Below are positions 3,085-47,384 of a DNA stretch of 64,000 nucleotides, piece by piece. The stretch's first letter is position 1. Each line of letters starts with the position of its first letter. This DNA comes from Desulfovibrio ferrophilus. Its GTDB lineage: Bacteria; Desulfobacterota; Desulfovibrionia; Desulfovibrionales; Desulfovibrionaceae. A program made the translations under genes and the position numbers. The notes under the pieces are model-generated. The model searched no databases, was not told the origin of the DNA, and was given only the letters and a program-made list of their open reading frames with translations. The DNA lies in NCBI RefSeq assembly GCF_003966735.1, contig NZ_AP017378.1, positions 558,001 through 622,000 of the forward strand. The letters are read 5' to 3'.

Positions 3085-3237
3085 GGTTGCTCCGTGCTGT
3101 TTCAGGTTGGGGCATCCTACCTGGGCTTGGAGTCTTCGCCAAGAGGTCTTGGCGCTGTCTTCAATTCATCGATGGGCTATGCTAGTGTTTGGGCTCTGTC
3201 TGTTGTGATTGCAGTATTGATGGTTGGGAGGGGCAAT

Positions 3238-4941
3238 ATGAGCGATGATGAACGTCGGCATCAGGATCGGGTTGCATTGGACCCACCCGGATTGGCTGTT
3301 TTACGTGTCGGTGGCAATGGGGATGAGATCTCCGACACTGTCCCCACCTTCGTGGATGTACTCAATGTCAGCCCGGGAGGGGTGATGGTTGAGGCGGAAC
3401 ACGGCGTTCCTGACCCGCAGCAGTGTATATTGCAGTTCTTTGATAATCAGCTCCAGGATTGGCGCGCCAGACCCTGTAGCCGGGTCTGGGAAGCTGAGGC
3501 AGATACTGATGATTCGCGGCTATGGGGCATGGCTTTCAAAGGATTTGATGAGTTGAATGCGCGCCTGTCCCTGCCGCCGGAGGATATTGATTTTCTGATG
3601 CGGATGAGTCTGCTCGGGAGTGTCCCTCGAAAGGCCACGTGTCGGTTGCTCAACTGTCTGGTGAGGAAACGGTTTGCTGACGGGGAAACCCTCGTGCGTC
3701 AGGGTGAGGCTGGCGATAGTCTGTTTGTCCTCCAATATGGAGATTGCCAGGTCGAAGTGATCAAGGATGGCGTGGTGCATGGTCTGGCCATGTTGCACCC
3801 CGGGGATGTGGTCGGTGAGATGGCCGTGTTGACGGGGGAACCTCGTACAGCCAGTGCTGTTGCCCAAGGGGATGTGACGGCTTGGCGGTTGGCTCGGTCC
3901 GATTTCGACAGATTGGCCAAGGAACAGCCTGATCTGTTGATATTCTTGACAGAATTGGTGGCCAACCGCTTCGAATCATCGCAGATTATTGCTGACCGGA
4001 CTGTGGCCAAGTACGTGATCCGACATCAGTTGGGAAAGGGCGAGTGGAGTATCGTCTACCGTGGGGTGCATCAGGCTCTGGACATGCCGGTTGCCATCAA
4101 AATGATGCGTCATGACATGGCCATGAATCATGCTTTTTTGCGAACCTTCCGGCAGGAAGCCAATACCATCGCGAAGCTTCGTCATCAGAATATCGTGCAG
4201 GTCTTCGATATCGAGGAACTCTACCGCACGGTGTTCATCATTATGGAATCCTTGCAGGGATTTTCTCTTAGGGATGTGTTGGAGCGGACCGGACGAATCC
4301 CGGCAGAACGCGCTGCGGCGATGTTAGTCCAGATTTGTTCCGGTCTGGCTTATGCCCATGAACAGGGGGTTGTGCATCGCGATATCAAGCCCGCCAATGT
4401 CTTTGTTCAGGACGGTGACCGGATCAAGATTCTTGATTTTGGGCTGGCCTGCACTCCTGCTGATGAAGGATTGGGGATTTTGGGGACACCCTTGTACGCC
4501 GCCCCGGAGCAGGTTGGTGGGTGCGCCACCGATCATCTGGCGGATATGTATTCCACCGGTATCATGGCCTACGAAATGGTCATCGGGCAGCGGCCCTATC
4601 CTGAGCGCAGCCGTTCGGAACTCATGCAGTTGCATCGCAATCAGGATATCCCCGATCCCTTGTTGTCCGTACCCGAGTTACCTGAGCCTTTGCGTGAGTT
4701 CATTGTCACCTGTTGCCGCAGGGACCCGAGTGAGCGTTTCAGCGATATGGAACAGGCCAGGGCATTACTGACCCCGTTGCTGAACGGAAAGGATCTTTGC
4801 ACCCGGCGCAAGATGTCCTCATTGTATCTGTTCTATCCCGAAGAGGTACAGGGTGGCGTCAACGAACTCATGGAGGAACTCTCGGTCCGGGCCAAGGCCA
4901 TGGGGGTGGAGTTGAGAACTGCCGAGATCAAGGATGTCTGA
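3238..4941 (+). CDS. PilZ / cyclic-nucleotide-binding / Ser-Thr protein kinase
   Basis: 567 residues from the ATG at 3238, chosen because GGGAGGGG lies just upstream; the frame is open further up to 3094. N-terminal PilZ-like domain (about 5-110) with both c-di-GMP signatures: RxxxR (R7-HQD-R11) and NxSxxG (N43-VSPGG). Next a cyclic-nucleotide-binding domain (about 140-255) with a phosphate-binding cassette GEMAVLTGEPRTAS. Then a Hanks-type kinase (about 260-515): glycine loop GKGEWSIVYRG, VAIK lysine near 284, HRDIKPAN near 379, DFG near 399, and GTPLYAAPE. No membrane segment, so cytoplasmic. Its end overlaps the PP2C phosphatase start by 8 bases. Inference: phosphorylation gated by two nucleotide messengers. 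Substrate unknown. Confidence 0.92.
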   Translation: MSDDERRHQDRVALDPPGLAVLRVGGNGDEISDTVPTFVDVLNVSPGGVMVEAEHGVPDPQQCILQFFDNQLQDWRARPCSRVWEAEADTDDSRLWGMAFKGFDELNARLSLPPEDIDFLMRMSLLGSVPRKATCRLLNCLVRKRFADGETLVRQGEAGDSLFVLQYGDCQVEVIKDGVVHGLAMLHPGDVVGEMAVLTGEPRTASAVAQGDVTAWRLARSDFDRLAKEQPDLLIFLTELVANRFESSQIIADRTVAKYVIRHQLGKGEWSIVYRGVHQALDMPVAIKMMRHDMAMNHAFLRTFRQEANTIAKLRHQNIVQVFDIEELYRTVFIIMESLQGFSLRDVLERTGRIPAERAAAMLVQICSGLAYAHEQGVVHRDIKPANVFVQDGDRIKILDFGLACTPADEGLGILGTPLYAAPEQVGGCATDHLADMYSTGIMAYEMVIGQRPYPERSRSELMQLHRNQDIPDPLLSVPELPEPLREFIVTCCRRDPSERFSDMEQARALLTPLLNGKDLCTRRKMSSLYLFYPEEVQGGVNELMEELSVRAKAMGVELRTAEIKDV

Positions 4942-5656
4942 TTCGAGGATGAATCTGGAAGCCTTTGGGCTCAGCCGTGTGGGACGGGTCAGGTCCAATA
5001 ACGAGGACAGGTTTCTGGTGCGCCACGTTGGGCGCGGTGTATTGCTTGCTGTGGCCGATGGTATTGGCGGGCAATACGGTGGAGCCAGGGCTGCTGGGTT
5101 TGCCATCCAGAGTTTTCGGGAGTTCGACGCGGAGGCTGCTCCTGAGTTGGCCTTGAATCGTTGCATGACGAAAGCCAATGAATCAATTTATCTGCATCGG
5201 GTGGAGAACCCTCGATTGAGGCACATGGGGACAACGTTGACGGCTGTGTATGCCGACCCGTTTCGGGCCGTGTACATCCATGCTGGCGATAGCCGGTTTT
5301 ATCTCCTTCGAGATGCGACTTCGACCTTGGTGACTCGGGATCACAGTACCTTGAGGACCATGATCGAAACGGGTGACGTGACTGCCGCCATGGCCAGAAT
5401 GCACCTGGAGAGGGATTCCCTGGAGCAATGTCTCGGGTGTCCCGACCTGGAGCCGGACAGGGGGGAGTTGCGACTTGATGCGGGGGATGTTCTGCTGGTG
5501 TGTACTGATGGTCTCTATCGTGAAGTGGCTGACGACACCATGACACGAACGCTTGTGGGAGGGGTTCCCCTGCGTCTGGCAATATTGGAGCTGGCTGCAA
5601 CGGCGCTGGCTTCTGGCGCACGTGACAACTTCACCATGGTCTCCGCTCGCATCTGA
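4934..5656 (+). CDS. PP2C-family protein Ser/Thr phosphatase
   Basis: 240 residues. PP2C/Stp1-type motifs in order: RSNNEDRF near the N-terminus, AVADGIGGQYGG (metal-binding Asp), HAGDSRFYLLRD, VCTDGLYREVADD, and SGARDNFTMV at the C-terminus. These are the Mn/Mg-coordinating aspartates of the family. Its ATG overlaps the end of the preceding kinase gene by 8 bases, so translation is probably coupled and it is the natural antagonist of that kinase. Soluble, no signal peptide. A second in-frame ATG at 4949 is possible but has poorer spacing. Confidence 0.93.
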   Translation: MSDSRMNLEAFGLSRVGRVRSNNEDRFLVRHVGRGVLLAVADGIGGQYGGARAAGFAIQSFREFDAEAAPELALNRCMTKANESIYLHRVENPRLRHMGTTLTAVYADPFRAVYIHAGDSRFYLLRDATSTLVTRDHSTLRTMIETGDVTAAMARMHLERDSLEQCLGCPDLEPDRGELRLDAGDVLLVCTDGLYREVADDTMTRTLVGGVPLRLAILELAATALASGARDNFTMVSARI

Positions 5657-5789
5657 TCCATTTTCTTTTGTCCTCTATTCGATATCTGGTGTATTGTCTG
5701 TGATGATTTTGGCCTTTTTGGGAATACAGCCAGAAGTCATTTCATTGTGATAGCGGTGGTTGTGAGATTTTATGACCGGGAGGACTGTT

Positions 5790-6746
5790 ATGCAGGACGT
5801 CATTCGTTGGGATCATTTTCTGATTGCAGAGCACGAACTGATTGAGCGCGCCATGGCGGTGCTCAAGGCGAATCTGGAGTTGGTGGAACAGGCCGGGCAT
5901 GATTCTTTGCAGCTCAAGCGTGCCCTGGATTTTCTGCTGGAGTTCGGGGACAGGATTCATAACGTGAAGGAAGAGCAGTTTTTGTTCCCCAAAATGCAGG
6001 AACGCGGTATTCCGGTGGAGGGCGGCCCGCTTGGAGTGATGCTTATGGAGCATGAGGCCGAGCGTGAGTTGCTCGGCAGAATGGCGGCATCCGTGGATGG
6101 ATTGAAGGGGGTGGCTCCAGAGGCCCGACGGACGTTTGTGCAGGAAGGATTGGATTACCTGAAGGTCAGGGCCGAGCATATCTGGAAGGAAAATGATGTT
6201 CTCTATCCCATGGGGCGTAAAGTCCTCAGTGAAGCTGACGCAGATGTGCTGCTGGAGAGTTTTTTGGCGTTGGATGTCCAGGTCTACGGGGAAGGTGCTC
6301 AGGAGAATTATGCGGCCATGGTCGCCGAAATCGAGGATGAGAAGGTCCGAAAGTCCCTGGTTGCCGGCCTGTCCATTGAGCAACTGCATGGCATTATGGA
6401 AACTCTGCCTTTTGAAGTGACCTTTGTGGATGCCAAGGACACCGTCGCCTATTTCAATAGACTGGACAAACCAAAGATTTTTCCGCGTACTCGTTCCGTC
6501 ATCGGACGCAAGGTCGAGAAATGTCACCCTGGTAAAAGTGTGGGCACCGTGCGTGAGATTGTGCAGGGATTCAAGGACGGCACGCGTGACAAGGCGGAAT
6601 TCTGGATCGATATGGGTGGAATGAAGGTCATGATCCGCTATTTCCCGGTGCATGATGAAGAGGGCAGGTATATGGGCGTTTTGGAAGTGACTCAGGACAT
6701 TGCCCCGATACAGGCCATCGAGGGCCAGAAACGACTGCTTGATTAG
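5790..6746 (+). CDS. Hemerythrin HHE domain / PAS protein (DUF438-like)
   Basis: 318 residues from the ATG at 5790, which has GGGAGG six bases upstream; an earlier ATG at 5772 lacks a ribosome site. The N-terminal half is a hemerythrin-like HHE cation-binding domain with spaced histidines (WDHFLIAEHELIE, RIHNVKEEQFLFPK, LMEHEAE, AEHIWKENDVLYPM). The C-terminal part (about 200-315) is a PAS domain of the type found with DUF438 proteins (METLPFEVTFVDAKD ... GRKVEKCHPGKS). Families with this order are thought to sense or handle oxygen, NO or iron. An intrinsic terminator follows directly, so it appears monocistronic. Confidence 0.88.
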   Translation: MQDVIRWDHFLIAEHELIERAMAVLKANLELVEQAGHDSLQLKRALDFLLEFGDRIHNVKEEQFLFPKMQERGIPVEGGPLGVMLMEHEAERELLGRMAASVDGLKGVAPEARRTFVQEGLDYLKVRAEHIWKENDVLYPMGRKVLSEADADVLLESFLALDVQVYGEGAQENYAAMVAEIEDEKVRKSLVAGLSIEQLHGIMETLPFEVTFVDAKDTVAYFNRLDKPKIFPRTRSVIGRKVEKCHPGKSVGTVREIVQGFKDGTRDKAEFWIDMGGMKVMIRYFPVHDEEGRYMGVLEVTQDIAPIQAIEGQKRLLD

Positions 6747-24990: not shown

Positions 24991-25180
24991 TGGCAAAAGC
25001 GGGCTTGGGTTGGAAAGAGCAGACTTTTGCTTTTTTTGTTCAAGAAATCAAGCGACATTCGCTTGCAACACAGGAATTTAATGTGCTTTGCGACGAGCCT
25101 GGCCAGCTTTTGTGATGCATGCCGCACTCAAATGGGGTATGTCGAACAAAAGCGGACTCTTATTTATGCGGGGAGGGCTC

Positions 25181-25651
25181 ATGACTGGCAGTGAAGATCT
25201 CACGAAATATGTGATTAACGTTCCAGAGAGGGCTGATTATGCCAGCTTGAGAACGATTCCGTTTTTCGATGTATTCAAAAATGACGGTGACCTGACGACT
25301 GTGGCCAGAGGAGGCTCCTGGCTGGGCTGCCCCAAGGGGACAGTACTGATGCGTGACGGCGAGCTTGGTCATGACTTCTTTGTTCTGATCAAGGGGTGTG
25401 TCGAGGTCCGCAAGGGAACCACGGCTTTGGGCGAGGTCTGTCAGGGTGAACTGTTGGGCGAGATGGGTGCCATGCTCCATGAAAAGCGGTCTGCCGACGC
25501 CGTAACCAGGGAGGACTGTATCCTGTTCAGATTACACGTCACCGCGTTGAACAACCTGCCTCTGCAGGTCGTTTTTCCCTTGATGGTGCATATCTATCGC
25601 ATCACTGCCAAGCGATTGAAGTTGGCCGACAAGAAATTGTCGATGATGTAG
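25181..25651 (+). CDS. Cyclic-nucleotide-binding domain protein
   Basis: 156 residues from the ATG at 25181, preceded by GGGAGGG. One CNB domain (about 40-140): PKGTVLMRDGELGHDFFVLIKG, cassette LGEMGAMLHEKRSADAV with Glu and Arg in the ligand positions. There is no helix-turn-helix or catalytic domain; the C-terminal helix (HIYRITAKRLKLADKKL) ends the protein. Probably a regulatory subunit or adaptor for a partner elsewhere. Confidence 0.85.
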   Translation: MTGSEDLTKYVINVPERADYASLRTIPFFDVFKNDGDLTTVARGGSWLGCPKGTVLMRDGELGHDFFVLIKGCVEVRKGTTALGEVCQGELLGEMGAMLHEKRSADAVTREDCILFRLHVTALNNLPLQVVFPLMVHIYRITAKRLKLADKKLSMM

Positions 25652-28112: not shown

Positions 28113-29153
28113 TCAGGATTGGAGAGGAGAAATCTCGCAGCGAGCCCGCCCGTTTTTCTTGGCGGCGTAAAGCGCTCTGTCGGCGAGGCCGATCAGGTCC
28201 TTGGCAGTGTAGAGAGCTTGATCTGCAAATTCCAACGGGTCATTGTTGGAGGCTGGCGTGTGAGGTCGGAGGCTGGCAACTCCCGCACTGAGAGTTACGA
28301 TGCCATAGCCTTCCACTCCGGTGGCATGAGGGATTTTCAGTTCCCGCACAGCATCCAGGATCTGTCGGGCCACATGTTGAGCCCCTTCAGTGTCCGTATT
28401 CTGGAGGATGACGGCGAATTCTTCCCCGCCATAGCGTGCGGCAAGGTCTGCCGGACGCCTGACGGCCTGATGTATGGTGGTGGCGATGGCGGTGAGCGCC
28501 TTGTCTCCAGCTAGATGGCCGTACGTGTCGTTGAATTCCTTGAATTGATCGACGTCGAAGAAGATCAGCGCCAGGGATGTCTGTTCACGCTTGGCGCGGA
28601 ACCATTCCTGCTCGAGGGCTTCGTCAAAACAACGGCGGTTGGGGATGGAGGTCAGGCCATCGACCATTGCCATGTGCTCAAGTTTGGCGTTGGCCTCAGC
28701 CAGAGCCATTTCGGCTTTTCGGCGTTCCGTGATGTTGATCAGTGTACCGAGGACACCGATGAGGGTACCTTGCGAGTCGAAGATGGGGGACTTCCCTGCT
28801 TCGACCCACAGGGTTTCTCCATCCGGGGTGCATAATTCTTCCACCAAGTGCATTTCCTGACCGAGTTCAATGACTTGCCGGTCACTGGTAATGCATTCGT
28901 TGATGCCCGAATTACTCCACGGCATGTCGTGGTCCGACTTGCCGATCAGTTCCTCAGGGCTATCAAAGCCCGCCATGGAGGCAAATTTGTGGTTGCAGCC
29001 CTGGTAAACATGATTGGTATCCTTCCAGAAAACAGCGGAGGGCATGTTGTCCAGCAGCACCTTGAGCAGAAGCTCGGGGTTGCCCTGTCCCAGGCGAATG
29101 GGGCGGTTCGCTGCTTCCGTTGTAGAGGGAGGCTGAGTGGAGGATGTGGTCAT
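28113..29153 (-). CDS. PAS-GGDEF diguanylate cyclase
   Basis: 346 residues from the ATG at 29153 (AAGGA upstream); an ATG at 29174 lacks a ribosome site. PAS domain (about 30-155, ending INITERRKAE), then GGDEF domain: DGLTSIPNRRCFDE, FFDVDQFKEFNDTYGH, catalytic YGGEEF, and a product-inhibition I-site RPAD five residues before it. It should make c-di-GMP from GTP with feedback control. The C-terminus is odd: the usual single ADxALYxAK motif occurs twice (ADQALYTAK then ADRALYAAK). Cytoplasmic. Confidence 0.93.
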   Translation of the reverse strand: MTTSSTQPPSTTEAANRPIRLGQGNPELLLKVLLDNMPSAVFWKDTNHVYQGCNHKFASMAGFDSPEELIGKSDHDMPWSNSGINECITSDRQVIELGQEMHLVEELCTPDGETLWVEAGKSPIFDSQGTLIGVLGTLINITERRKAEMALAEANAKLEHMAMVDGLTSIPNRRCFDEALEQEWFRAKREQTSLALIFFDVDQFKEFNDTYGHLAGDKALTAIATTIHQAVRRPADLAARYGGEEFAVILQNTDTEGAQHVARQILDAVRELKIPHATGVEGYGIVTLSAGVASLRPHTPASNNDPLEFADQALYTAKDLIGLADRALYAAKKNGRARCEISPLQS

Positions 29154-29461
29154 CGTATGCTGTCCTTGGCTCATGGCGTAGATGGCAAGTAATTGTTGAG
29201 AAGCGCATGCATCTTGCTGCGGAGACCGACACCATGTGCTGTTGCCGCCCTTCTGGACAGGGCGCTGATCGACAATGCGACAGGCCGACCAGACATGTCC
29301 CCTTACTTATCGAGTAAACATGAATGGGCGAAAAACTGCAATCCCCTTCACTGATGCAGAAGGTCTCGCATTGAGCCTAACCCCTTGGGTACTCAATGGA
29401 TAAAAAAGTTGAGTGGATTTGTGTGTATTAGGGCGATTGGCAACGGATGCCAATCGGGTAG
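29154..29461. other. 308-base intergenic region
   Basis: No convincing gene. It holds an exact 9-bp inverted repeat (CGATTGGCA at 29434-29442, TGCCAATCG at 29448-29456) five bases from the stop of the 29462 gene. The repeat is a possible terminator on either strand, but neither side has a good T-run. Confidence 0.5.
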
Positions 29462-46349: not shown

Positions 46350-47384
46350 CTAGGCAATTTTGGCTTCAGCAAGGATTTGGATGAGTCGTTTGAATAATTG
46401 GGGGTCGTGCGCACCCTGATCGTCACGGATATGCTTCAGTGCCTCAAAGGGGTGCAGTGGAGGACGATACGCAGTGCCCCTTGTCAGGTTGTCATAGTGA
46501 TTCGCAAGAGAGACGGCCTTGGCATAGAAAGGGATGTCATCCGCCATGGCACCGGAGGGGAACCCACGACCGTCCTCGCGTTCGTGATGGAATAGCACGC
46601 AGTGAATGGCCTCCGGGACCAGTGGAATGGATGCCGAGAGTTGAACTCCAATGGCCGGATGCGAGATGAACATTGTCCGCTCTGCATCTGTGAGGGTGTT
46701 CGGGGCCTTGTCCAGCAGGTTCGAAGGGAGCCTCGTTTTGCCAATATCGTGCAGGATCGCTCCCAGGCAGCAGGCCGTCATCAGCAGGTCATCGGGTTCG
46801 AAGGTATGGAGTATGCAACCCGTGTAGACCATGGTTCCGACACCATGTCCGTACCCCTTGCCGCTTTTAGTGATGAATTTGGAGAGTTCCTTCAGAGCTC
46901 TTGGTTCCTGAAAGAATCTGGTGCTCTGGGAGACGACATCCTCGAATCTTTTGTACCTGATTCGCAGTGTGGTCTTGGGCAGGTTCTGCTCAAAAAAGCC
47001 GCGTGCCATGTCTTGAGTTGTGGTGCTCCACGCCTTGGCTCTTTCCGCTACCGTAATACTCTCATCGTCAAGCAGTTGCCCTAGATTCCTGCGTAGATAT
47101 TCGTCGTAGGCTCTTTTCTGATGCAGTGGGATATAGACCTGATCCACACCTTGGCTTTCCAGCTTTTTGCGGTGTTCAGGGCTGAAACTTTCGCCCTTCC
47201 TGGTATAGAGCACAAACTGGTCATCCTGCCTGAGATAGATGGCGAAATCGGCCCGGGTATTGGCGATGATGTGGTTTGTGGGGAACTGATGAAATGAATC
47301 AGGCCGAATGTCGTTCACGTCGAGTCTCATGGATGAATCGTTATCTATTGTTTCAGGATGTCTGTGATTGGGGAACATTTCCAT
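46350..47384 (-). CDS. HD-GYP domain protein
   Basis: 344 residues. An N-terminal DUF3391-like region (about 15-120: DFAIYLRQDDQFVLYTRKGE) precedes the HD-GYP domain: catalytic HDIGKTRLP near 225, HPAIGVQLS, HHEREDGRGFPSG (GFP in place of GYP) and SLANHYDNLT. The HD pair and following His residues are present, so c-di-GMP hydrolysis is plausible. The H expected in the first helix of the domain is at GYGHGVGT. No strong ribosome site at the ATG. Monocistronic. Confidence 0.87.
   Translation of the reverse strand: MEMFPNHRHPETIDNDSSMRLDVNDIRPDSFHQFPTNHIIANTRADFAIYLRQDDQFVLYTRKGESFSPEHRKKLESQGVDQVYIPLHQKRAYDEYLRRNLGQLLDDESITVAERAKAWSTTTQDMARGFFEQNLPKTTLRIRYKRFEDVVSQSTRFFQEPRALKELSKFITKSGKGYGHGVGTMVYTGCILHTFEPDDLLMTACCLGAILHDIGKTRLPSNLLDKAPNTLTDAERTMFISHPAIGVQLSASIPLVPEAIHCVLFHHEREDGRGFPSGAMADDIPFYAKAVSLANHYDNLTRGTAYRPPLHPFEALKHIRDDQGAHDPQLFKRLIQILAEAKIA

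Follow-up and report, generated by a model that had tools for sequence, protein, structure and literature searches.

The 64,000-nucleotide stretch of Desulfovibrio ferrophilus DNA analysed here (the window) encodes a member of a rare bacterial Ser/Thr kinase family that carries a PilZ and a CNB domain and, judging from its sequence, probably combines the inputs of two second messengers in a single phosphorylation output. Connections between c-di-GMP and cAMP signalling usually run via transcription or via enzymes that synthesise or degrade c-di-GMP. If this kinase reads both messengers directly, it would bring c-di-GMP and cAMP together at the post-translational level and would also be a bacterial example of Ser/Thr phosphorylation gated by cyclic nucleotides. 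Because the protein is small and predicted to be soluble, and its two sites can be removed singly, the dual-input question is directly testable.

The kinase gene and its domains

The gene and the segments of its product are located in the window as follows.

3238..4941, forward strand: PilZ-CNB-Ser/Thr kinase gene, 567 amino acids, ATG start, aligning end to end with the copy of a genus neighbour (G001)
3238..3567, forward strand: PilZ domain (residues 1-110; RxxxR = R7-R11, NxSxxG = N43-G48), assigned from homologues above the Pfam cut-off, the model of residues 1-129 and conserved motif columns
3658..3972, forward strand: CNB domain (residues 141-245), Pfam PF00027 at 5e-22
3814-3852, forward strand: CNB phosphate-binding cassette GEMAVLTGEPRTA (residues 193-205), with Glu194 and Arg203
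3973..4011, forward strand: conserved linker after the CNB domain (residues 246-258, motif (A/G)DRT(V/I)xKY), 92% identical to G001 and conserved in A1
4012..4752, forward strand: Hanks-type Ser/Thr kinase domain (residues 259-505) with a short activation segment, Pfam PF00069 at 2.5e-55
4753..4938, forward strand: C-terminal tail (residues 506-567), supported by alignment

The open reading frame was confirmed in the window from the ATG at 3238 to the stop ending at 4941, and the purine-rich GGGAGGGGC lies immediately 5' of this ATG. The copy in G001 is also 567 residues long and is 78% identical to the window copy over a full-length alignment. Since this alignment begins at the same ATG and runs end to end, the GTG at 3094, which is the start listed first, is less likely and was not favoured over ATG 3238. 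The product has the domain order PilZ, CNB, Hanks kinase and conserved C-terminal tail. Estimates of dN/dS between the window and G001 copies are 0.11 for PilZ, 0.08 for CNB and 0.08 for the kinase, with synonymous sites near saturation; these low values point to purifying selection. Promoter and terminator scans at the locus gave no more matches than shuffled sequences. A full-length AlphaFold model built from four sequences was poor (pLDDT 50), and the sensor-kinase arrangement is not readable from it.

PilZ domain

Despite a sub-threshold profile score, we regard the PilZ domain of the window protein as established on three independent lines of sequence and model evidence, namely its homologues, its predicted structure and its conserved motifs. 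PilZ (PF07238) was not detected in a Pfam search of the whole 567-residue protein, and the segment searched alone reached 15.8 bits (E 0.019), short of the 22.5 bits required. Homologues of the same architecture pass this cut-off, with 37.7, 32.5, 30.3, 28.2 and 25.2 bits. Modelled with AlphaFold2 (pLDDT 70, pTM 0.65), residues 1-129 form the six-stranded barrel of the PilZ fold and aligned best to PilZ structures, with VIA Z values of 9.9 for the BcsA PilZ domain, 8.6 for VCA0042 and 8.3 for MapZ; the top Foldseek matches were also PilZ, at weak E-values (5.7e-3). Many of the matching structures had been solved with c-di-GMP.

The two motifs read RHQDR (residues 7-11) and NVSPGG (residues 43-48). 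Among 14 PilZ-type sequences, a count that leaves out G015 (motifs lost) and G504 (copy cut by an in-frame stop), R7, R11 and G48 are present in all, N43 in 13 (once replaced by D) and S45 in 12. These members diverge down to approximately 40% identity, and residues 1-110 have a mean majority fraction of 0.40; the motif residues rank among the most conserved N-terminal columns, while the remainder of the domain drifts. The sequence-only reading had proposed a PilZ domain with both c-di-GMP motifs, and this is borne out for the motifs by their presence and conservation and for the fold by the homologues and the model. PilZ proteins that carry the motifs may still fail to bind c-di-GMP in vitro, as reported for PlpA (PMC8316039). 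Two further copies are incomplete in this region: the one in G504 (L113) has an in-frame TAA within its PilZ-CNB part, reflecting a decayed gene or an assembly error, and the N-terminus of the L037 relative is masked by a run of N upstream of position 4968.

CNB domain, linker and kinase domain

The Pfam cNMP_binding profile (PF00027) matches residues 144-229 with 78 bits (5e-22; cut-off 27.5). The cassette GEMAVLTGEPRTA at residues 193-205 contains both E194 and R203, as had been read from the sequence, and these are kept in 14/14 and 13/14 PilZ-type members, respectively. The proposal of two nucleotide inputs in one chain thus holds at the sequence level, with the site residues of both PilZ and CNB retained in divergent homologues, and this conservation supports the view that the two nucleotide sites are under selection. 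The linker (residues 246-258) connects the C-helix of the CNB domain with the N-lobe of the kinase and has the lowest dN of all segments between the window and G001 copies. A second CNB protein is encoded in the window at 25088-25651 on the forward strand, by a 187-amino-acid ORF whose only Pfam domain is cNMP_binding (1e-13).

The kinase is intact, as first described: K288, E307, H380-R381-D382, K384, N387, D400-G402 (DFG) and an APE motif ending at E424 are all present. The catalytic residues are invariant across PilZ-type members, and the HRD Arg varies in the family (R, Q or L). The best NCBIfam kinase model is of the PknB/Stk1 type (NF033483, 250 bits over the kinase region). The activation segment has 18-20 residues in all members, whereas that of the order's other kinases has 22-26. 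The last ~42 residues of the C-terminal tail have a predicted strand-helix-strand structure common to nearly all family members.

Family distribution and N-terminal types

Of 348 genomes in the class, 8 contain full-length relatives, the window genome among them, and G015, whose PilZ motifs are lost, is a ninth match; four further families with full-length relatives came from 395 genomes drawn from the phylum, and L036 is added to these. The kinase family is sporadic (~2-3% of the related genomes sampled), and the PilZ-CNB-kinase order, whose spread the sequence-only reading had left to a domain search, occurs in approximately ten genera. Given this recurrence, a chance fusion or a frame artefact was rejected as the source of the architecture. 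Scanning the genome contigs with a single query sequence recovered three relatives only. One genome (G506) has three PilZ-CNB-kinase copies (L114, L116 and L118).

The CNB domain, the kinase and the C-terminal tail are common to all members, and three kinds of N-terminus are found on this shared core: PilZ, none (family f61) and two-CW, the last identified by NF045718 (E 1e-26 to 1e-31). In a tree of the core, PilZ-type members occur to either side of the root, which was placed at the midpoint and is not independently fixed, and are also nested inside other groups; PilZ therefore looks like the ancestral N-terminus, with later losses or replacements. All five two-CW members have lost the cassette Glu (GG, GM or GV), four of them have also replaced the Arg, and the catalytic-loop Lys is changed to Asn or Thr in all five. 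With their HRDxT/N loop and broken cNMP cassette, these members (L102-L106) may be pseudokinases or altered kinases.

PP2C phosphatase and neighbouring genes

The kinase gene is followed by a phosphatase gene.

4934..5656, forward strand: PP2C phosphatase (Stp1/IreP-type), with an alternative start at ATG 4949, supported by Stp1/PP2C profile matches and by adjacent homologues in relatives

An antagonist phosphatase overlapping the kinase by 8 bases had been proposed, and the first part of this stands: an intact PP2C follows, retaining the metal/phosphate motifs NED, DGIGG, GDSR, TDG and DN, including the metal-binding Asp residues, and scoring 48 bits with PF13672 (cut-off 24). Its NF033484 score (172.6 bits) is under the equivalog cut-off of 230, and its PDB matches are bacterial PP2C phosphatases such as PstP. 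The overlap hinges on ATG 4934, whereas the in-frame ATG 4949 would leave a gap of 7 bases. The sole start available in G001, a GTG, corresponds to ATG 4949, so the overlap itself is not conserved and was rejected as a conserved coupling signal. A PP2C gene lies beside the kinase or within ~1.2 kb of it at about half of the loci, in PilZ, no-sensor and two-CW types alike. Located 3' of the window PP2C gene is a Hemerythrin-PAS protein gene (5772-6746, forward strand); a homologue also comes after the PP2C gene in G001 (L107 3481-4569), and another adjoins a two-CW member (L104 6622-7227).

Four loci (G231, G198, G407 and L036) encode a class III nucleotide cyclase within 5 kb of the kinase, and the cassette is intact in all four relatives. 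At the G231 locus, the PP2C, kinase and CHASE2-cyclase genes are all on one strand, with a last gap of ~240 bases; the cyclase is upstream on the same strand as the kinase in G198 and G407, and convergent in L036. Of the 21 loci with known genome totals, three have such a cyclase near the kinase against 0.33 expected (p ~0.004, in a test chosen post hoc). The proximity of class III cyclases to four relatives supports a cAMP/cGMP input. No match to a class III cyclase was found near the window kinase. Matches to class III cyclases number 8 in the window genome, and those to GGDEF 46, so both messenger types are probably made there.

L096 (3036-3953, reverse strand) and L036 (7226-8101, reverse strand) share a protein with a 'YHDVEHAV'-like motif, encoded near the kinase and the CHASE2-cyclase; it has no Pfam match and is possibly a phosphohydrolase of the same pathway. 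A short CHASE2 fragment adjoins the kinase in L097 (7012-7536), either a decayed gene or an assembly error.

Two genes in the window had been suggested to set the c-di-GMP level.

28113-29174, reverse strand: GGDEF gene, ~23 kb from the kinase
46350-47384, reverse strand: HD-GYP-type HD_5 gene, ~41 kb from the kinase

Both genes exist, but their link to the kinase is weak in view of these distances and of the 46 GGDEF matches genome-wide, and none of the kinase relatives had an adjacent GGDEF gene at the loci examined. The pair is thus unsupported as specific partners of the kinase.

Proposed mechanism and alternatives

With moderate confidence, we propose that the gene product is a soluble dual-input Ser/Thr kinase that senses c-di-GMP through PilZ and cAMP or cGMP through CNB. 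RxxxR and NxSxxG would provide the c-di-GMP site of the N-terminal PilZ domain, and the Glu/Arg cassette would be the site at which the CNB domain binds cAMP or cGMP. The state of both sensors would then reach the kinase N-lobe by way of the CNB C-helix and the conserved linker and set the activity of the kinase, in a manner comparable to the last CNB domain of PKG. The short activation loop, together with an HRD Arg that is unconserved in the family, makes control through the sensors more probable than control by phosphorylation of that loop. The adjacent PP2C, probably co-transcribed, would take the phosphates off. With the kinase gated by two second messengers, its output would be substrate phosphorylation under both signals. 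Ligand binding, the cyclic nucleotide that is read, the sign of each input, the AND/OR logic and the substrates are the parts of this scheme that we infer.

Two relatives have each lost one of the sites: G015 lacks the PilZ motifs and keeps the CNB cassette, and G016 lacks the cassette Arg and keeps the PilZ motifs. Some members therefore cannot use both inputs, and these separate losses, few as they are, form the pattern that would be expected of separable inputs. G015 would also suit a kinase controlled by cAMP/cGMP alone, in which CNB is the sole live switch and PilZ is a structural or docking domain, with c-di-GMP affecting location and not activity. Such an arrangement, which we consider rather unlikely, is consistent with the presence of the CNB-kinase-tail core in all types, with PilZ being absent in f61 or swapped for two-CW, and with nucleotide cyclases, never GGDEF genes, being found near the relatives. 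However, PilZ retains exactly the c-di-GMP ligand residues amid drift, and a pure docking domain would need none of them. The converse, a kinase controlled by c-di-GMP alone whose CNB domain is a scaffold or a sensor of something else, could account for G016, and certain CNB domains do take other ligands or none (PMC2246266); the canonical cassette in 13 of the 14 PilZ-type members and the intact cassettes of all four cyclase-linked relatives make it improbable. Least probable is a constitutive or phosphorylation-controlled PknB-type kinase with both sensors as remnants deaf to nucleotide, which the sporadic distribution might suggest but which is at odds with both ligand motifs being retained at large divergence, the low dN/dS in every domain and the short activation segment.

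Extending the dual-input reading to the whole family, we give an even chance to the sequence-based view that this is an ancient bacterial kinase family in which one polypeptide reads c-di-GMP and cAMP/cGMP to direct Ser/Thr phosphorylation. It would have a dedicated PP2C, its own cyclase in some lineages and an exchangeable sensor end (PilZ, none or two-CW), with the nucleotide site decaying upon exchange for two-CW.

Comparison with known systems

No description of a PilZ-CNB-kinase protein was found in the open-licence literature, where absence says little. The nearest described protein is Pkn1 of Myxococcus xanthus, in which a single polypeptide likewise combines a Ser/Thr kinase with PilZ; this PilZ is predicted to lack c-di-GMP binding and no CNB domain is described there (PMC8316039), whereas the PilZ motifs of the window protein are intact. 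Bacterial CNB-kinase fusions were noted in general terms, as an 'Other_bacterial' class, by Kannan et al. 2007 (PMC2246266), with PilZ absent and no such family described. Cross-talk between cAMP/cGMP and c-di-GMP through the CNB domain of a single chain is also found in Bdellovibrio Bd1971, a CNB-EAL protein stimulated by cAMP/cGMP (PMC6717892), but there an EAL phosphodiesterase acts on c-di-GMP as its substrate, and the protein has neither kinase nor PilZ. With PknB/Stk1-type kinases and their Stp1-type PP2C, the window system shares the catalytic domain and the linked phosphatase (NF033484, ~173 bits); it differs in a kinase that is predicted to be soluble, lacks PASTA domains, has, by sequence, nucleotide-binding domains as sensors and possesses a shorter activation segment.

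The best PDB sequence match across CNB and kinase is Plasmodium PKG, over residues 134-462. As in PKG (Plasmodium PKG, 5dyk, and human PKG1), a single chain contains a CNB domain with a canonical Glu/Arg cassette and, directly after it, a Ser/Thr kinase. Unlike PKG, which has tandem CNB domains, the window protein has a single one, with an added PilZ domain and a PknB-type catalytic domain instead of the AGC-type domain and C-terminal tail of PKA/PKG, and the Plasmodium PKG matches stop at window residue 462-465. The single CNB domain and the PknB-type kinase led us to reject membership of the PKA/PKG family. The bacterial counterpart of PKA/PKG envisaged by the sequence-only reading is supported as an analogy, for which 'PKG-like' is a fair label.
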